Assembly: GCF_900102425.1 (NCBI RefSeq) | Contig: NZ_FNBT01000006.1 | Coordinates: 62,001-126,000, forward strand | Source: Blastococcus aurantiacus | GTDB taxonomy: Bacteria > Actinomycetota > Actinomycetes > Mycobacteriales > Geodermatophilaceae | Length of the DNA: 64,000 bases | Direction: 5' to 3' | Part shown: positions 10,571-25,126 of the stretch, one piece after another | How positions within the stretch are numbered: position 1 is the stretch's first letter | Layout of the letters: each line of letters begins with the position of its first letter | The notes under the pieces: generated by a model | Databases searched by the model: none | What the model was told of the DNA's origin: nothing | The model's input: the letters and a program-made list of their open reading frames with translations, nothing else | Program-made: the position numbers and the translations under genes

Positions 10571-11695
10571 TCAGCGGTCGGCGTCGGTGTAGACGATCAT
10601 GCCGCGGATGTTCTTGCCGTCCTTCATGTCCTGGTAGCCCTGGTTCACGTCCTCGAGCTTGTACTTGGTCGTGACGAGCTCCTCGAGCTTGAGCTGGCCC
10701 TCCTGGTAGAGCGAGAGCAGCTCGGGGATGGCGTTGCGCGGGGCCAGGCCGCCGAAGATGGCGCCCTGCAGGTCCTTCTGCATGAGCGTGAGGTCGAACA
10801 GGCTCAGCTTCACGTCCACGTTGGCGAAGTTGCCCATGCCCGTGACGACCGCGCGCCCGCCCTTGCCGGTGACGCTCATGGCGGCGGCGACGTCCTCGCC
10901 CTGGATGTCGCCGACGGTGATGATCGTCTTCTCCGCCATCCGGCCCCAGGTCAGCTCGTTGATGGCCGGGGTGGCCTCCTCCATGCTGGCGAAGGTGTGG
11001 GTGGCGCCCATGTTCATCGCCCACTCGCGCTTCTGCGCCACGGGATCGATGACGATGACGCGCTTCGCGCCTGCCGCGGCCGCGCCCTGGACGGCGTTCA
11101 TGCCCACACCGCCGGCGCCCATGATCACGACGTTCTCGCCGGGGCGGACGTCGGCCACCTTGGTCGCCGAGCCCCAGCCGGTGGTGACGCCGCAGCCCAC
11201 CAGGGCGGCGATCTCGAGCGGGATGTCGGGCTCGATGCGCACGACCGAGGCCTGGTTCACGGTGATGTAGGGGGAGAAGGTGCCGAGCAGGCACATGGGC
11301 GAGACGCCCTGGCCCTTGGCGGTGACCCGGTGGGTGCCGTCGGAGATCGCCTTGCCGCCGAGCAGGTGCGCGCCCAGGTCGCAGAGGTTCTGCTGACCGC
11401 GCGAACACGGCGGGCACACGCCGCAGGCGGGGATGAAGGCAGTGACGACGTGGTCGCCCTCCTTGAGGCCGGTCACGCCCGGGCCGACCTTGGTGACGAC
11501 GCCGGCGCCCTCGTGCCCGCCCAGGGACGGGAAGCCGACCGGGGTGGCGCCGGTGACGAGGTGCTCGTCGGAGTGGCACAGGCCCGAGGCGGCGAGCTCG
11601 ACGGTGACCTCACCGGCGACCGGATCCCCGACCTCGATCTCCTCGACCGACCACTGCTCGCCCACGCCCCACAGAATTGCGCCCTTGGTCTTCAC
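10571..11695 (-). CDS. NDMA-dependent alcohol dehydrogenase (nicotinoprotein)
   Basis: The 374-residue zinc-dependent medium-chain dehydrogenase has a catalytic-zinc site (SGLCHSDEH, then GGHEGAGVV), a structural-zinc loop with four Cys (ACGVCPPCSRGQQNLC) and a Rossmann motif GAGGVG. Segments such as MKTKGAILWGVGEQW, GTFSPYITVNQASVV and MQKDLQGAIFGGLAPRNAIP are typical of the actinobacterial NDMA-dependent alcohol dehydrogenase family. These enzymes keep NAD(H) bound and need an external electron acceptor. In mycobacteria that acceptor in vivo is mycofactocin. The biosynthetic locus lies 4 kb away, which fits that role. AAGGAAA precedes the GTG start at 11695. Confidence 0.9.
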   Translation of the reverse strand: MKTKGAILWGVGEQWSVEEIEVGDPVAGEVTVELAASGLCHSDEHLVTGATPVGFPSLGGHEGAGVVTKVGPGVTGLKEGDHVVTAFIPACGVCPPCSRGQQNLCDLGAHLLGGKAISDGTHRVTAKGQGVSPMCLLGTFSPYITVNQASVVRIEPDIPLEIAALVGCGVTTGWGSATKVADVRPGENVVIMGAGGVGMNAVQGAAAAGAKRVIVIDPVAQKREWAMNMGATHTFASMEEATPAINELTWGRMAEKTIITVGDIQGEDVAAAMSVTGKGGRAVVTGMGNFANVDVKLSLFDLTLMQKDLQGAIFGGLAPRNAIPELLSLYQEGQLKLEELVTTKYKLEDVNQGYQDMKDGKNIRGMIVYTDADR

Positions 11696-14620: not shown

Positions 14621-15844
14621 TCAGCCCTTGCCGGACGAGTGCGGCGCGAAGGGGGCGTCCACGCCGTCGACGCCCAGGTGCCGCTCGAAGGACGGCGGGA
14701 TCACCAGGTCGCTCGGGCTGAACTGGTCGATCGAGGTGTGGCCGAGTCCGATCATGGCCGAGCCGAGACCGTCGCGGAGCAGGTCGAGAACGTTGCCGAC
14801 GCCGGCCTCGCCGTTGGCACCGAGGCCCCAGAGGTAGGCGCGGCCGATCATGACGGCCTTCGCGCCCAGGGCCAGGGACTTCGCGACGTCGCCGCCGCGG
14901 CGGATGCCGCCGTCGAGCAGCACCTCGACCTGATCACCGACGGCCTCGGCGACGGCGGGCAGCGCGCGGATCGCAGCAGGCGTGCCGTCGAGGTTGTTGC
15001 CGCCGTGGTTGGAGACCGAGATCGCGCTGACGCCGGCGTCGACGGCGCGCTTGGCGTCGTCCACCCGCATGACGCCCTTGAGCATGAAGGGCTTGTCCCC
15101 CCACAGCTCGCGCAGCCAGGCGACGTCCTCCCACGTGGGCATGGGGGACTGCATCCACTGGCCGTAGGCCTCGAAGAAGGTGGGGGCCTTGTCCCCGGGG
15201 GTGGCGACCATGTTGGGCACGGTCAGGTCCGGGATCTTCATGGTCTTCGCGAAGCCCCACAGCCAGCGCGGCCGGGTCAGCACCTGGGGGGCGTACCGGC
15301 GGGCGGCCTCGAAGTTGATCCGCTCCGGGATGAAGGGGCTGCCCCAGTCGCGGCCGTAGGAGAACGACCAGTCGAGGGTGGCGATGAGCCCGGCGGCGCC
15401 GGCCCGGCGGGCGCGCTCGACCTTGGCGGCCATCACGTCGCGGTCGCCGACCCAGTACAACTGGAAGAACGTCTTGGGGTTGGCCGCGATGACCTCCTCC
15501 ATGGGCTTGCTGGCCATCGAGGACAGCCCCATGGCGGTGCCGCGGGAGGCGGCGGCCCGGGCGACGTCGACCTCGCCGTCGGGGGTGACGGCCTGGACGC
15601 CGGTCGGGCTGATGATCACGGGCAGGGAGATCTCCTGGCCCATGACGGTGGTCGCCATGTTCTTCTCGTTGGCCAGCCCGGCGGTGTGCGGGGCGAACCC
15701 GAGCTCGGCGAAGGCGGCGATGTTGTCCTCGGCGGTGAGCCCGCGCTCGGACCCGGCCACCAGCGCGCCGTAGACGCCCTTGGGCAGCCGCTTCTTCGCC
15801 CGCCGCTGGGCCTCGGCCACCGACTCGAACCAGGGGTTCGCCAT
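14621..15844 (-). CDS. mftD: Pre-mycofactocin synthase MftD (FMN alpha-hydroxy-acid oxidase family)
   Basis: The 407-residue protein belongs to the lactate/glycolate oxidase FMN family. Visible signatures are SPTGVQAVTPDGEVDVARAA, FFQLYWVGDRDVM, and the catalytic SVSNHGGNNLDGTPA with the active-site His. It is followed by LLDGGIRRGGDVAKSLALGA for phosphate binding of FMN. In mycofactocin biosynthesis MftD oxidatively deaminates the Val-Tyr-derived intermediate to give the redox-active dicarbonyl. AGGAGA lies 7 bp upstream of ATG 15844. It is read leftward, directly downstream of mftR, instead of following mftC as in mycobacteria. A perfect palindrome lies 47 bp upstream of the start. Confidence 0.92.
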   Translation of the reverse strand: MANPWFESVAEAQRRAKKRLPKGVYGALVAGSERGLTAEDNIAAFAELGFAPHTAGLANEKNMATTVMGQEISLPVIISPTGVQAVTPDGEVDVARAAASRGTAMGLSSMASKPMEEVIAANPKTFFQLYWVGDRDVMAAKVERARRAGAAGLIATLDWSFSYGRDWGSPFIPERINFEAARRYAPQVLTRPRWLWGFAKTMKIPDLTVPNMVATPGDKAPTFFEAYGQWMQSPMPTWEDVAWLRELWGDKPFMLKGVMRVDDAKRAVDAGVSAISVSNHGGNNLDGTPAAIRALPAVAEAVGDQVEVLLDGGIRRGGDVAKSLALGAKAVMIGRAYLWGLGANGEAGVGNVLDLLRDGLGSAMIGLGHTSIDQFSPSDLVIPPSFERHLGVDGVDAPFAPHSSGKG

Positions 15845-15890
15845 GCGCTGCTCTCCTGTCGCTGATCTGCTGCCCCCGCCCGGAACGGTC

Positions 15891-15909
15891 GGTGGCACTG
15901 AGTGCCACC
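15891..15909. promoter_or_regulatory. Candidate MftR operator upstream of mftD
   Basis: This is a perfect 19-bp inverted repeat, GGTGGCACT-G-AGTGCCACC, 47 bp upstream of the mftD start and between mftR and mftD. The core TGGCACTGAGTGCCA matches the core upstream of mftA at 13 of 15 positions. On the mftD strand a TAGGGT -10-like box overlaps its upstream edge, so a bound repressor would block the promoter. Confidence 0.6.
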
Positions 15910-15955
15910 CTACCGGCACGGCGGGAGACCTGCGCCACACCTGGGGGTGAGGTGC

Positions 15956-16558
15956 TCAGCGGAGCAGTGCGGGGAACCCTGCGGTGAGCTCGGCGAACGC
16001 CTGGCGCAGATGGGTCCCGAGTGCGGAGCGCTCGTCGGCCAGCCACGCCTGGAACGCCGTCGTCGCCGCCGCGCGGGTCGTCGCGGCCACCAGCCGCGGG
16101 ACAAGGTCCGTGGCGTCGGCCGCGGAGCGGGCGGCGACGTACCGGGCGACCACCCGGTCCACCTCCGCGTACCGCAGCTGCGAGTGGGCGAGGAGGGCCG
16201 GCTCGGTCAGGATCAGCAGCATCCGCTCGCGGAGGAGCGGCAGCTCGGCCGCCGCGTAGTCGTTGACCTCGACGTAGGCCGCGCACACCGACGCCAGCAC
16301 CGGCTGCGCCGGGTCGGCGCCGGCGAGCAGCTCCTCGAGCCGCGCGACGTGGGCGGCGAAGTCGCCCCAGACGGCATCGGCCTTGGTGGCGAAGTAGCGG
16401 AAGAACGTGCGCCGGCTGATGCCCGCCGCGTCGGCGACCTCGTCGGTCGTGACCTGCTCGAAGCCGCGCAGCGTGAAGAGGTCCAGCGCCGCCCGCTCCA
16501 CCCGGGCCCGGGTGCCCTCGGCCGGGACGCCGGTCGCGGCGGTCTCGATGGCGGTCAC
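15956..16558 (-). CDS. mftR: Mycofactocin regulator MftR (TetR family)
   Basis: The 200-residue TetR-type repressor has an N-terminal helix-turn-helix, VTTDEVADAAGISRRTFFRYF, with the RRTFFRYFATKADA pattern typical of MftR. The C-terminal ligand domain is helical. In mycobacteria MftR represses the mft genes and responds to long-chain acyl-CoA. It is divergent from mftA and upstream of mftD, so it can control both. The start is a GTG at 16558. The frame stays open far upstream, but that region is the mftA promoter. Confidence 0.88.
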   Translation of the reverse strand: MTAIETAATGVPAEGTRARVERAALDLFTLRGFEQVTTDEVADAAGISRRTFFRYFATKADAVWGDFAAHVARLEELLAGADPAQPVLASVCAAYVEVNDYAAAELPLLRERMLLILTEPALLAHSQLRYAEVDRVVARYVAARSAADATDLVPRLVAATTRAAATTAFQAWLADERSALGTHLRQAFAELTAGFPALLR

Positions 16559-16619
16559 GCAGGCATCATGCCCGTTCCCGGCCCGTGATCCAGTGGACCG
16601 GCCACCCCCGGTTGCCCCC

Positions 16620-16634
16620 TGGCACCGGGTGTCA
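16620..16634. promoter_or_regulatory. Candidate MftR operator upstream of mftA
   Basis: TGGCACC-G-GGTGTCA is a 15-bp inverted repeat with one mismatch, in the mftR-mftA intergenic region, 48 bp before the mftA start. It shares its core with the perfect palindrome upstream of mftD. A CATTAG -10-like element overlaps its right edge. Confidence 0.55.
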
Positions 16635-16681
16635 TTAGCCTCCCTGCATCCGTCCGTGACCGCGATCACCAGGAGTCCGCC

Positions 16682-16798
16682 ATGCCCGAGACCCACACCG
16701 ACGTCGACGTCGCCCCGGCCCCCGTCGCCGAGGAGGCCCTGGTCGAGGAGTCGCTCGTGGAAGAGGTCTCGATCGACGGCATGTGCGGCGTCTACTGA
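16682..16798 (+). CDS. mftA: Mycofactocin precursor peptide MftA
   Basis: This gene encodes 38 residues beginning MPETHTDVDVAPAPVAEE. The leader is acidic and Val/Glu/Ala-rich, and it ends in the canonical mycofactocin core IDGMCGVY. The C-terminal Val-Tyr pair is what MftC decarboxylates and cross-links, and what MftE and MftD then release and oxidise. AGGAG lies 8 bp upstream of the ATG. The stop codon precedes mftB by 32 bp. The peptide is shorter than most gene-calling cut-offs. Confidence 0.95.
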   Translation: MPETHTDVDVAPAPVAEEALVEESLVEEVSIDGMCGVY

Positions 16799-16830
16799 GC
16801 GCCCCGGCCATCGATCCGCACGGCACCCCT

Positions 16831-17133
16831 GTGACCACGGCGGTGTTCCCTGCCGAGGTCGCGTTCGACCCGGCCGGGCCCTGGCAGCGCGCCCGCTCGG
16901 TCGCGCTGCGGCCCGAGCCCTTCGGCGCGCTGGTCTACCACTTCGGCAACCGGAAGCTCTCCTTCCTGAAGTCGAAGACCCTGGTCGCCGTCGTCGAGGC
17001 GCTGGCCGACCACCCGAGCGCGAGCGCCACGCTCGTCGCCTGCGGTGTGTCCGAGGCCCAGCGCCCGGCGTACGAGAAGGCCCTGGCCGACCTGGCCCGC
17101 TCGCAGATGATCGAACCGAGGGAGACCCCGTGA
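16831..17133 (+). CDS. mftB: Mycofactocin peptide chaperone MftB
   Basis: The 100-residue protein has the PqqD-like RiPP recognition fold. It binds the MftA leader and presents the peptide to MftC. Typical MftB features are PWQRARSVALRPEPFGALVYHFGNRKLSFLKSKTL near the N-terminus and a helical LVAVVEALADHPSASATL. I chose the GTG at 16831, which gives a start like other MftB proteins; a GTG at 16783 would overlap mftA. Its stop overlaps the mftC start by 4 bp (GTGA), indicating translational coupling. Confidence 0.92.
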   Translation: MTTAVFPAEVAFDPAGPWQRARSVALRPEPFGALVYHFGNRKLSFLKSKTLVAVVEALADHPSASATLVACGVSEAQRPAYEKALADLARSQMIEPRETP

Positions 17134-18389
17134 CCGCCCTCCTGCCGCCCCGTCCCGCCGCGGCTGCGCCGGCCGCCCGCCCCACCACCCCGGACCGTCC
17201 CGTCGGCGGGCGCCTGATCGACCAGTTCGAGTACGGCCTGGACGCCCCCATCTGCCTGACGTGGGAGCTGACCTACGCCTGCAACCTGGCGTGCGCGCAC
17301 TGCCTGTCCTCCTCGGGACGGCGCGACCCCAACGAGCTGTCCACCGCCGAGGCCGAGGCGGTCATCGACGAGCTGCAGCGCATGCAGGTCTTCTACGTCA
17401 ACGTCGGCGGCGGCGAGCCCACCGTCCGGCCGGACTTCTGGCACCTGCTCGACTACGCGATCGGCCACGACGTCGGCGTCAAGTTCTCGACCAACGGCAT
17501 CAAGCTGGACAAGACCCGCGCCGCCCAGCTGGCCCGCACCGACTACGTCGACGTGCAGATCTCCCTGGACGGCGCCACGGCCGAGGTCAACGACCGGGTG
17601 CGCGGCACCGGCTCCTACGCCACCGCCATCCGGGCGCTGGAGAACCTGGCCGAGGCCGGGATGAAGGACTTCAAGGTCTCCGTCGTCGTGACGCGGGAGA
17701 ACGCCGGGCAGCTCGACCAGTTCAAGGCGCTGACCGACTCCTTCGGCGCCCAGCTGCGCATCACCCGGCTGCGGCCCTCGGGCCGGGGCGCTGACGTGTG
17801 GGACGAGCTGCACCCGACGCAGGCCCAGCAGCGCGAGCTGTACAACTGGCTGCTGGCCAACGGCGACGGCGTCCTCACCGGCGACTCGTTCTTCCACCTG
17901 TCCGCGTTCGGGGAGGCCTTGCCCGGGCTGAACCTCTGTGGCGCGGGACGCGTGGTCTGCCTGATCGACCCGGTCGGCGACGTCTACGCCTGCCCGTTCG
18001 CCATCCACGAGAACTTCCTCGCCGGCAACGTGCGCGACGAGGGCGGCTTCCAGCGGGTCTGGCAGTCCTCCGAGCTCTTCGCCGACCTGCGCAACCCGCA
18101 GACCGGCGGCGCCTGCACCAAGTGCGCACACTTCGACGCCTGCCGGGGCGGGTGCATGGCCGCCAAGTTCTTCACCGGCCTGCCGCTGGACGGCCCGGAC
18201 CCCGAGTGCGTGCAGGGGTACGGCGAGACCGCCCTCGCCGCGCGCGACCTCGAGCTGGTCACCCCGCGCAGCCACATCGACCACTCGCACAGCGGCCCGG
18301 TGCGCGGTCAGCCGACCCTGCTGGGCATCCCGTCCATCCCGGCCAAGATCTGCGACGAGTCGCCGCTCGCCGGGGTCGACCTGCGCTGA
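17130..18389 (+). CDS. mftC: Mycofactocin radical SAM maturase MftC
   Basis: The 419-residue radical SAM/SPASM enzyme has the [4Fe-4S] cluster motif CNLACAHC (Cys51, Cys55, Cys58). It is followed by the GGGEP motif in VNVGGGEPTVRPDFW and by the SPASM domain with its cysteines (LNLCGAGRVVCL, YACPFAIH, CTKCAHFDACRGGCM). MftC oxidatively decarboxylates the C-terminal Tyr of MftA and then forms a Val-Tyr carbon-carbon bond. The GTG start overlaps the mftB stop. A short hairpin (CACCCCTCC...GGGGGAGAGGTG) follows about 20 bp after the stop. The next gene of the usual operon, mftD, is not here but on the other side of mftR. Confidence 0.96.
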   Translation: MTALLPPRPAAAAPAARPTTPDRPVGGRLIDQFEYGLDAPICLTWELTYACNLACAHCLSSSGRRDPNELSTAEAEAVIDELQRMQVFYVNVGGGEPTVRPDFWHLLDYAIGHDVGVKFSTNGIKLDKTRAAQLARTDYVDVQISLDGATAEVNDRVRGTGSYATAIRALENLAEAGMKDFKVSVVVTRENAGQLDQFKALTDSFGAQLRITRLRPSGRGADVWDELHPTQAQQRELYNWLLANGDGVLTGDSFFHLSAFGEALPGLNLCGAGRVVCLIDPVGDVYACPFAIHENFLAGNVRDEGGFQRVWQSSELFADLRNPQTGGACTKCAHFDACRGGCMAAKFFTGLPLDGPDPECVQGYGETALAARDLELVTPRSHIDHSHSGPVRGQPTLLGIPSIPAKICDESPLAGVDLR

Positions 18390-18475
18390 ACGCGCCGCGC
18401 GGCTGACCTCACCCCTCCGGGGGAGAGGTGGGCCGTGGGCTGCGGAGGGGTGGCGTTCGCGCCGATCACGTCTGC

Positions 18476-20311
18476 GTGATCGCCGAACTCCGCCTGCGAA
18501 CGGCGCAGCTGCTGCCCTCGGGTCGCCGGCTGCCGGAGGACGTGTGGCAGCGCCGCCATCGGGCCATCGTGCGCCTGTCGGCTGTTTGCGCCGTCGGGCT
18601 GGTCCTGCTCGCCTGGGTGTGGGGGTACGGGCAGCCGGCCGCCGTGGCGGTGCTCGCCGCCGTCGGCGGGCCGCTCGTCGTCGCGGTCGTCCCCGGGCTG
18701 AGCCGCGCGGTGCACGCCGCCGCCACCACCTGCAGCCTCATGGCCGCCTCGGTCGCCCTCGTGCACCTGTGGGGCGGGGTCACCGAGGCGCACTTCGTCT
18801 TCTTCGTGATGATCGGCGTCGTCTCGCTGTACCAGGACTGGGTGCCCTTCGGCATCGCCGTCGTCGTCGTCGCCCTGCACCACGGGGTGTTCGGCACGCT
18901 GCAGCCGCACGCCGTCTTCGGGCACGAGGGGCAGGGCAACCCCTGGGCGTGGGCCGGCATCCACGCCGCCTTCGTGCTAGCCGCGAGCCTGGCCCACCTG
19001 TCCTCGTGGCGGCTCAACGAGGCCCAGGTCCTCAGCGATCCACTCACCGGGCTGGCCAATCGGACCCTCCTCGAGGAGGTCACCCACCGCCTGCTGTCCC
19101 GCGGCGACGAGGTGAGCCTGCTGTTCATCGACCTCGACGACTTCAAGGCCGTCAACGACAGCCGCGGCCACGCCTCCGGCGACGAGCTGCTGCTCGTGCT
19201 CGCCGAGCGCCTGCGGGGGTGTGTCCGGCCGGGCGACGTCGTGGCGCGGATCGGCGGTGACGAGTTCGCCGTCGTGGTGAACGGCGGGGCCGACGTGGCC
19301 CGCGTCGTCGGGGAGCGGGCGCTCGTCGCGCTGTCGGTCCCCGTGCCGCTGGCCGACGGGACGCTGACCGTGCACGGCAGCGTCGGCGTCGCCGCCTCCA
19401 CCGACATGACCGACGCATCGGCCGACGCACTGCTGCGCAACGCCGACCTGGCGATGTACCTGGCCAAGGCGCAGGGCAAGAACCGGCTCGTCGTGTACGC
19501 CGACGGGATGGCCGAGGCTGCCCGCCGACGGGCGGCGCTCGCCCAGGACCTGGCCGGCGCCGCCGCTTCCGACCAGCTCGAGGTGTACTACCAGCCCACG
19601 GTGCGCCTGGCCGACGGCCGCACGACCGGCTTCGAGGCCCTGGTCCGCTGGAACCACCCCGAGCGGGGTCTCATCCCGCCGGTGGAGTTCATCCCGCTCG
19701 CGGAGGAGACCGGCGACATCGTCGGCATCGGGACGTGGGTGCTGCGCGAGGCGCTGCGCCAGGGCGCGGTGTGGACGGCGGAGACCGGGATGCCGCTGCG
19801 CATGGCCGTGAACCTCTCCCCGCGGCAGTTCCACGACGGCAGCGACGTCACCGCGCTCGTCGTGGAGGCGCTGGCGGAGTCGGGCTTCCCGGCCGAGCAG
19901 CTCACGCTGGAGGTCACCGAGGGCGTGCTGGTCCGGGACGGCGACGCTGTCGTGGCCCAGCTGGAGTCGCTGCGCGAGCTCGGCGTCCGCATCGCCATCG
20001 ACGACTTCGGCACCGGCTTCTCGGGGCTGTCCTACCTGCGGCACCTGCCGGCGGACATCATCAAGATCGACCGCAGCTTCGTCATGGACCTGCCGCTGGG
20101 GCGCTCGGCGGTCACGCTCATCACCTCGATCGTGGAGCTGGCCCGCACATTGGGGCTGGACATCGTCGCCGAGGGCGTGGAGACCGAGGGTCAGCGGCGC
20201 GCGCTCGCGGAGCTGGACTGCGGATCGGCCCAGGGCTATCTGTTCGCCCGTCCGGAGCCTGCCGACCGCGCGGGGGCTGCCCTCGCGGCCGGCGTGCCGG
20301 TCCGGGCCTAG
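18476..20311 (+). CDS. Membrane GGDEF-EAL cyclic di-GMP protein
   Basis: The 611-residue protein has an N-terminal membrane sensor region (about residues 35-175, with four or more hydrophobic helices). A GGDEF domain follows (intact GGDEF at 260-264, FIDLDDFKAVND upstream), then an EAL domain (EAL at 387-389, DDFGTGFSGLSYL, EGVETEGQ). Both active sites look intact, so it could make and degrade c-di-GMP. The start is uncertain: GTG 18476 is chosen because an earlier in-frame GTG at 18428 has GGGAG too close to serve it. It follows mftC after 86 bp; any link to mycofactocin is unproven. Confidence 0.85.
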   Translation: MIAELRLRTAQLLPSGRRLPEDVWQRRHRAIVRLSAVCAVGLVLLAWVWGYGQPAAVAVLAAVGGPLVVAVVPGLSRAVHAAATTCSLMAASVALVHLWGGVTEAHFVFFVMIGVVSLYQDWVPFGIAVVVVALHHGVFGTLQPHAVFGHEGQGNPWAWAGIHAAFVLAASLAHLSSWRLNEAQVLSDPLTGLANRTLLEEVTHRLLSRGDEVSLLFIDLDDFKAVNDSRGHASGDELLLVLAERLRGCVRPGDVVARIGGDEFAVVVNGGADVARVVGERALVALSVPVPLADGTLTVHGSVGVAASTDMTDASADALLRNADLAMYLAKAQGKNRLVVYADGMAEAARRRAALAQDLAGAAASDQLEVYYQPTVRLADGRTTGFEALVRWNHPERGLIPPVEFIPLAEETGDIVGIGTWVLREALRQGAVWTAETGMPLRMAVNLSPRQFHDGSDVTALVVEALAESGFPAEQLTLEVTEGVLVRDGDAVVAQLESLRELGVRIAIDDFGTGFSGLSYLRHLPADIIKIDRSFVMDLPLGRSAVTLITSIVELARTLGLDIVAEGVETEGQRRALAELDCGSAQGYLFARPEPADRAGAALAAGVPVRA

Positions 20312-24433: not shown

Positions 24434-25126
24434 GTGGCCGAGCTCGCCGGCGCGGTGTGGCCGCGCATCCCCGAGGCTGCGCAGCTGGTCGTCCCGCTCG
24501 GTTCCGTGGAGCAGCACGGGCACCACCTGCCGCTGGCCACCGACACCGCCGTCGCGTCCGCGGTGGCGCGGGCCGCCCTGCCGGATCTGGACGGCGCGCT
24601 GCTCGCGCCCGCCCTGCCCTACGGGGCCAGCGGGGAGCACGAGGGCTTCCCCGGCACGGTGTCGATCGGCACGGAGGCGCTGACCGCCGTGCTGGTCGAG
24701 CTGGGACGCTCGGCGTGCCGGTGGGCGCCGCGCCTGCTGGTGGTCAACGGCCACGGAGGCAACCTGGAGGCGCTGCGGGCGGCGGTGCCGCTGCTGCGCA
24801 CCGAGGGGCGCGACGTGGCCTGGTTCGCCTGCGGTGTGCCGGGCGGCGACGCGCACGCCGGCCGCACGGAGACGTCACTGATGTTGCACGTGGAACCGGA
24901 TGAGGTGCGCGAGGCGGACGCGGTGGCGGGGGAGACCGCGCCGGTGCGGGCGCTCCTGCCCCGGCTGCGCGCCGAGGGGGTGCGGGCGGTCAGCCCCACC
25001 GGCGTGCTCGGCGATCCCGCGGGCGCCTCAGGGGCCGAGGGGGCGGAGCTGCTGGCTGCGCTGGCGAGGCGGCTGGTCGCGGCGGCGGCGGAGTGGCGGG
25101 TGGACCCCACCGGGCGGCTCGGCTGA
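24434..25126 (+). CDS. mftE: Mycofactocin creatininase-family peptidase MftE
   Basis: The 230-residue protein belongs to the creatininase metal-dependent amidohydrolase family. Metal-site motifs are PLGSVEQHGHHLPLATDT (Glu, His, Asp ligands), VNGHGGN and later HAGRTETSLML. In the mycofactocin pathway MftE cleaves the modified peptide to release the C-terminal Val-Tyr-derived moiety. A TAGGCT -10 box ends 6 bp before the GTG, suggesting a leaderless mRNA. It lies about 6 kb from mftC, whereas in mycobacteria mftE belongs to the same operon. The assignment over a general creatininase rests on sequence type and on mftF close by. Confidence 0.85.
   Translation: MAELAGAVWPRIPEAAQLVVPLGSVEQHGHHLPLATDTAVASAVARAALPDLDGALLAPALPYGASGEHEGFPGTVSIGTEALTAVLVELGRSACRWAPRLLVVNGHGGNLEALRAAVPLLRTEGRDVAWFACGVPGGDAHAGRTETSLMLHVEPDEVREADAVAGETAPVRALLPRLRAEGVRAVSPTGVLGDPAGASGAEGAELLAALARRLVAAAAEWRVDPTGRLG

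Follow-up and report, generated by a model that had tools for sequence, protein, structure and literature searches.

The window, that is, the whole 64-kb stretch of DNA analysed here, contains a split mycofactocin cluster in which two predicted operators lie on either side of mftR. The features are listed below by their window coordinates.

14621..15844, minus strand: mftD, pre-mycofactocin synthase (TIGR03966, 674 bits; cut-off 470.85)
15893..15907, no strand: predicted mftD-side MftR operator, TGGCACTGAGTGCCA, within a 19-bp palindrome at 15891-15909
15907..15912, minus strand: putative mftD -10 element, TAGGGT, whose last base is the operator's first base
15956..16558, minus strand: mftR, TetR-family regulator with a GTG start (TIGR03968, 226.6 bits; cut-off 224.9)
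16612..16617, plus strand: putative mftA -35 element, TTGCCC, assigned from the conserved TTG-TANNNT spacing
16620..16634, no strand: predicted mftA-side MftR operator, TGGCACCGGGTGTCA
16636..16641, plus strand: putative mftA -10 element, TAGCCT, assigned by conservation; the 18-bp spacer contains the operator
16682..16798, plus strand: mftA, mycofactocin precursor peptide (TIGR03969, 47.7 bits; cut-off 25)
16783..17133, plus strand: mftB, chaperone; open frame with an uncertain start, perhaps at 16831 (TIGR03967, 114.7 bits; cut-off 33)
17130..18389, plus strand: mftC, radical SAM maturase (TIGR03962, 650.9 bits; cut-off 265)

Both palindromes were re-read from the sequence at the coordinates given by the sequence-only reading, with mftR between them, and the genes were called with NCBIfam models. 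The mftD-side site is embedded in GGTGGCACTGAGTGCCACC, a perfect palindrome upstream of mftD that consists of 9-bp arms around a central G. The mftA-side site spans -62 to -48 relative to the mftA ATG and is separated by 61 bp from the mftR start codon on its other side. The two sites had been described as differing at two positions; the actual number is three (positions 7, 9 and 13), which leaves 12 of 15 alike, and one of the three differences falls among the 12 arm bases. The proposed overlap with -10-like elements holds at mftD, where one base is shared with TAGGGT, and fails at mftA, where the operator adjoins the -10 element without overlapping it.

The window MftR passes the equivalog cut-off of TIGR03968 narrowly. 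It contains the Pfam domains PF17754 ('MftR C-terminal domain', 105.0 bits) and PF00440 (TetR_N, 49.5 bits), and it matches the solved MftR structure (PDB 8x0a) with E=1.8e-33. It is the only protein of its genome to match MftR at an E value of 1e-55 or better, and it is encoded between the two sites. On the other side of the cluster, mftC is followed 38 bp later by a co-directional GGDEF/EAL open frame (18428-20311), which is perhaps co-transcribed with it.

The number of matches to the motif is unremarkable, and was dropped as evidence: the window is not above shuffled sequence (seven matches at up to two mismatches, with 12.5 expected), and the genome is hardly above a control in which the motif was read backwards (three exact strand matches to TGGCACNNNGTGYCA, representing two places, versus two strand matches). 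What goes beyond chance is placement and conservation. The two exact places in the 4.16-Mb assembly (97% complete) are the upstream regions of mftA and mftD. All nine places with one mismatch in this genome were inspected, and no mycofactocin gene was recognised behind any of them; at least five of them are intragenic by manual choice of reading frames, and four neighbours were scanned against Pfam, among them a BrkB-family gene.

To see whether relatives keep the motif before their mft genes, named loci around MftC were analysed, for which the best 80 of 575 relatives were taken. Loci L001-L063 are Geodermatophilaceae by title, to which family we take Klenkia and Trujillonella to belong; a Frankiales metagenome-assembled genome (L053) and an unverified entry titled Bacillus (L055) were counted in, and L081-L110 and L211-L232 lay outside the analysed set. 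The mftA site was found at 60 of the 63 loci, so the prediction of conservation was not refuted. In 56 of the 58 loci in which tblastn detected mftA, the site is present with at most two mismatches within 240 bp, the exceptions being L024 and L043. Of the five loci with no detected mftA, four (L012, L019, L028 and L054) have it with zero or one mismatch up to 400 bp upstream of mftB, and the fifth, L003, has no site within that distance. L003 and L024 retain only the right half of the operator, although both genomes encode MftR. Modestobacter excelsi carries two mft clusters (L034 and L042); at L034 (9334-9633), divergent mftD and mftA genes share a single operator, TGGCACTCAGTGTCA.

Beyond the family, most of the 16 loci L065-L080 (Rhodococcus-like and others) show a related sequence, CTGCAC or GTGCAC...ATGYCA, at this place, three to four mismatches away from the family motif. 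Two Pseudonocardia loci (L064 and L069) have CGGCACCGGGTGCCA at the mft cluster and MftR on another contig, and a Nocardioides locus (L070) has neither MftR at an E value of 1e-20 nor the site. A search of 249 genomes from across the order found MftR at an E value of 1e-55 or better in 118. Among the 30 best-scoring loci, 28 had mftA or mftB, and TGGCANNNNNTGCCA was found upstream with no mismatch in four, one mismatch in 21 and two mismatches in three; thus 25 of 28 have it at up to one mismatch and 28 of 28 at up to two, the latter being a level that is not rare by chance in 300 bp. Read by eye, these loci have a TANNNT-like hexamer directly after the operator.

The mftD side was analysed in 92 promoters of 400 bp each, comprising all 91 outside the window's genus and one extra copy inside it. 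The site is present with at most one mismatch in 74 of these; 179 controls with dyad-permuted half-sites average 0.22 such promoters and never exceed 8. In MftR-positive relatives it is kept in 71 of 80 promoters, so that conservation held on this side as well; the remaining nine are all extra copies in genomes whose other mftD has the site. In MftR-negative genomes, three of 12 promoters have it, and these genomes are 70-88% complete. Within the window's genus, 21 of 23 genomes have a pair of exact sites in a 1.7-kb region around mftR, and G003 and G015 have a single one. In neither the window nor L001-L063 does mftD directly follow mftC; in L014 and L049, an extra mftD copy (58-60% identical) without the site lies about 1.3 kb behind mftC. 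The site is also found where mftD is remote from mftR (2.46 Mb along the contig in G042 and 1.67 Mb in G046). Outside the family, a detached mftD has it 59-122 bp upstream in G275 and Pseudonocardia G325; L332 and L337 were confirmed as MftD (712 and 686 bits), and two further mftD pieces of G325 are cut by contig ends. As judged from these promoters, the predicted operator accompanies the main mftD wherever that gene sits. Such a second operator would be needed because mftD has left the mftABC operon in these genomes. Two Modestobacter-like mftD copies have two operators each (L245, 3927-3988; L246, 4099-4204), spaced 47 and 91 bp from start to start.

The mftD-side palindrome could also act in RNA, as a hairpin that terminates or attenuates transcription between mftR and mftD, which are on one strand and 111 bp apart. 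On that strand it can form a hairpin with an 8-bp stem and a 3-nt loop, and a 101-nt stretch that includes it folds better than shuffled sequences (z -2.99). An intrinsic terminator was rejected, as the stretch 15800-16720 has no GC stem followed by a T run and no terminator was called there. Moreover, it is the letters that are conserved and not the pairing, since common variants (TGACAC..GTGCCA) break a pair, and the same letters recur in the divergent intergenic region upstream of mftA and upstream of mftD genes that are remote from mftR. We consider a role in RNA highly improbable.

Presence of the motif follows presence of MftR. Among the 112 family genomes searched, with MftR scored as present at 215 bits or more, an exact match to TGGCACNNNGTGYCA was found in 92 of 92 MftR-positive and six of 20 MftR-negative genomes (Fisher 1.6e-13, a value that overstates the association because the genomes are related). 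When only genomes at least 95% complete are considered, the counts are 84 of 84 and two of nine. The six MftR-negative genomes with an exact match are G036, G071, G090, G093, G095 and G097, and in three of them (G036, G095 and G097; 88, 70 and 72% complete) the match precedes mftD. The numbered genomes and the named loci are not independent samples, because they overlap (for example at L003, L014, L030 and L049).

The position of the sites with respect to the promoters is likewise conserved. Because a generic sigma-70 consensus scan of this stretch of the window finds neither promoter (no hits), the -35 and -10 elements are assigned by conservation. In all 57 aligned mftA sites (56 related loci and the window), the operator lies between a TTG (-35) and a TANNNT (-10), with a spacer of 17 bp in 33 and 18 bp in 24. 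At mftD, a TANNNT ending on the operator's first base, which is the register seen in the window, occurs in 56 of 90 distinct site contexts. Of the other 34, 27 have GTGRCA at the left end of the operator, possibly a -35 element, and 18 of these 27 have [CT]ANNNT 16-19 bp further on; the remaining contexts fit neither arrangement. The geometry at mftD varies between genera. All of the operator positions found would hinder RNA polymerase. Many Modestobacter- and Geodermatophilus-like mftD promoters (L151-L197) have, by eye, a GTG-N8-CAC-like dyad upstream of the putative -10 element, possibly the site of a second regulator.

Since the -35 and -10 elements beside the operator are also conserved, promoter function or common ancestry might by itself explain why the letters are kept, with no repressor involved. 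We regard this as extremely improbable on three grounds. The MftR-less genome of L043 (best match 82 bits) keeps its mftA promoter intact (TTGCCG-17 bp-TAACGT), and the palindrome is gone; the position of the motif relative to the putative -10 element differs between genes; and there is no sigma-54 gene to account for TGGCAC, which we take to be a look-alike of a sigma-54 promoter. A sigma-54 promoter was rejected because PF04552 had no match in the genome of the window; as a control, the same search was positive in four of 14 genomes, including E. coli and B. subtilis.

An operator for MftR has been described in Mycolicibacterium smegmatis by Mendauletova and Latham, and the following is taken from the accessible portion of that report (PMC8728441). 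MftR was footprinted with DNase I on TCCATTCTGGCACTCGATGCCATATAT, at -79 to -53 relative to mftA, and a consensus T-N2-GGCA-N5-TGCC-N2-A was derived from 83 sequences of two mycobacterial genera. Overproduction of MftR lowered the mftA-F transcripts, long-chain acyl-CoA released MftR from the operator, and the authors considered the regulatory network likely to be incomplete; the operator reported there is a single one, 5' of mftA. As far as that portion allows a comparison, the two systems share a TetR-family MftR, the core GGCA-N5-TGCC (TGGCACTCGATGCCA) and a site just 5' of mftA. The core is exact in the mftD site of the window and has one change in the mftA site (TGTC for TGCC). Neither window site has the outer T or A of the consensus, the corresponding bases being G and C at mftD and C and T at mftA; because of this, the window sites represent a variant and not an identical member of the published operator. 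Judged by its letters, the window motif is a lineage variant of that operator. Unlike the arrangement described for M. smegmatis in the accessible text, two operators are found here, the second before a detached mftD, and relatives add sites at dehydrogenases. The operator itself is already known from mycobacteria; here it accompanies a relocated gene and, in some relatives, also precedes cofactor-using enzymes. In the mycofactocin literature searched, which was mostly open-access and in part accessible only as excerpts, no earlier report was found of a second operator or of its travelling with mftD, nor of MftR operators at dehydrogenases; a search joining mycofactocin with Geodermatophilaceae or Blastococcus returned nothing.

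The part of MftR that reads DNA appears to be conserved as well. The window MftR is 37-46% identical to MftRs from across the order (tblastn). A recognition helix GI[SAG]RRT[FL]FR is common to all 21 proteins compared, which were the window MftR, other named MftRs, that of Rhodococcus, five order-wide MftRs and seven MftR-like paralogues. The predicted recognition helix of MftR is thus nearly unchanged across the order.

Taken together, the proposal that the paired palindromes are candidate MftR operators is supported by their conservation at mftA (60/63) and mftD (71/80) and by the core that they share with the footprinted operator. We consider it very probable that the pair are MftR operators that co-repress the mftABC and mftD transcripts of the split cluster. 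An MftR dimer would bind each palindrome. At mftA it would occupy the 17-18-bp spacer between the -35 and -10 elements, and at mftD it would cover the downstream edge of the -10 element and the start region, in both cases excluding RNA polymerase. One repressor could thereby co-repress the rightward mftABC and the leftward mftD transcripts, and the mftA-side site would probably also serve autoregulation of mftR. An inducer would release MftR; by analogy with M. smegmatis, this may be long-chain acyl-CoA. Operators of the tetO type resemble this arrangement in having a dyad within or beside the core promoter, a repressor gene beside divergent targets and probable autoregulation, and differ from it in half-site, ligand and regulon.

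Exact sites in relatives extend to other genes. In 22 family genomes (G106 and G107 left out), where exact sites were compared with gene places, the motif had 171 strand matches versus 16 for the backwards control; these genomes were chosen mostly because they have more than two sites, so the shares given here are not family-wide. Of 104 exact places, 23 precede mftR/mftA, 29 precede mftD (two of them shared with an SDR gene), 14 precede TIGR03989 alcohol dehydrogenases, 11 more precede TIGR03971 SDRs (six of them shared with an MftR paralogue), two precede weaker TetRs and 25 precede none of the genes sought. Counted by gene, an exact site lies within 420 bp of mftR in 23 of 23 cases, of mftD in 27 of 29 and of the paralogue in six of seven. 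The corresponding numbers are 14 of 58 for NDMA-dependent alcohol dehydrogenases (E<=1e-110) and 12 of 73 for SDRs (E<=1e-85), and therefore most of these dehydrogenases are without an exact site; a place picked at random would precede one of them with a probability of about 0.0006. Sites before mycofactocin-dependent alcohol dehydrogenases and SDRs occur in Klenkia-like, Modestobacter-like and some other genomes. Many of them are orthologous by eye (two alcohol dehydrogenase groups and several SDR groups), and they therefore represent few independent events. TIGR03989 and TIGR03971 are the families of mycofactocin-dependent dehydrogenases given in the accessible part of the work of Haft (PMC3023750), whose main text mentions neither 'operator' nor 'palindrom'.

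At L203, L204, L208, L209, L249 and L250, an MftR-like TetR paralogue that falls short of the TIGR03968 cut-off (145-197 bits) adjoins SDR genes. The SDRs scanned beside it, at L203, L204, L208 and L249, are of the mycofactocin-coupled type, and in all six paralogue-linked cases shown the operator stands just before TAACGT or TAACCT. These SDR-side sites may belong to the paralogue. More generally, the motif could be the operator of another TetR-type regulator, such as this paralogue, with MftR not the main binder: several relatives encode a second MftR-like TetR that shares the recognition helix and has copies of the motif next to its gene, and two weaker TetRs lie 62 bp from a motif copy. 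We give this reading only a small probability, considering that the window's genome encodes a single protein passing an E value of 1e-55, between the two sites; that G089 and G100-G103 have sites at alcohol dehydrogenases and no second MftR-like match above 110 bits; and that the published footprint, in the portion accessible, was made by MftR itself (PMC8728441).

Sites at dehydrogenases are restricted in their distribution. In the window, the NDMA-dependent alcohol dehydrogenase gene (10571-11695) and mftE (24434-25126) stand apart from mftABC, and neither has an operator within 400 bp upstream (best matches with four and five mismatches, respectively); the same holds for the genome's second NDMA-dependent alcohol dehydrogenase (three mismatches in 400 bp). 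Within the window's genus, the pair at mftA and mftD usually accounts for all exact sites. Outside the family, a search of 32 genomes with HGGCACYSRRTGCCA yielded 77 places, of which 26 lie beside MftR. The 51 others were inspected: eight are at mft genes (four mftBC clusters and four mftD genes, of which two are truncated at contig ends), and none is within 420 bp before a dehydrogenase by tblastn. Because no dehydrogenase site was found in these 32 genomes or at either NDMA-dependent alcohol dehydrogenase of the window's own genome, the broader regulon would be lineage-restricted. We think it likely that part of the Geodermatophilaceae have a genome-wide mycofactocin regulon with MftR, together with the MftR-like paralogue, as master regulator, and that the operator of this regulon reveals the partner enzymes.

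If so, one operator would control both the making of the cofactor, through mftA and the detached mftD, and its use by certain dehydrogenases: alcohol dehydrogenases of TIGR03989 in Klenkia- and Modestobacter-like genomes and SDRs of TIGR03971 in several genera. A 15-bp operator that travels with mftD and marks certain dehydrogenases would name, from sequence alone, the partners of the cofactor among the many candidate dehydrogenases of these actinobacteria, and the set of operators would offer a direct test of whether a peptide-derived cofactor and its enzymes are regulated together in the cell. As a separate observation, the motif copies near the weaker TetRs read TGGCACTTGGTGTCA and lie 62 bp upstream of a TetR that scores weakly to TIGR03968 (G084:C117:78716 and G086:C94:23736).
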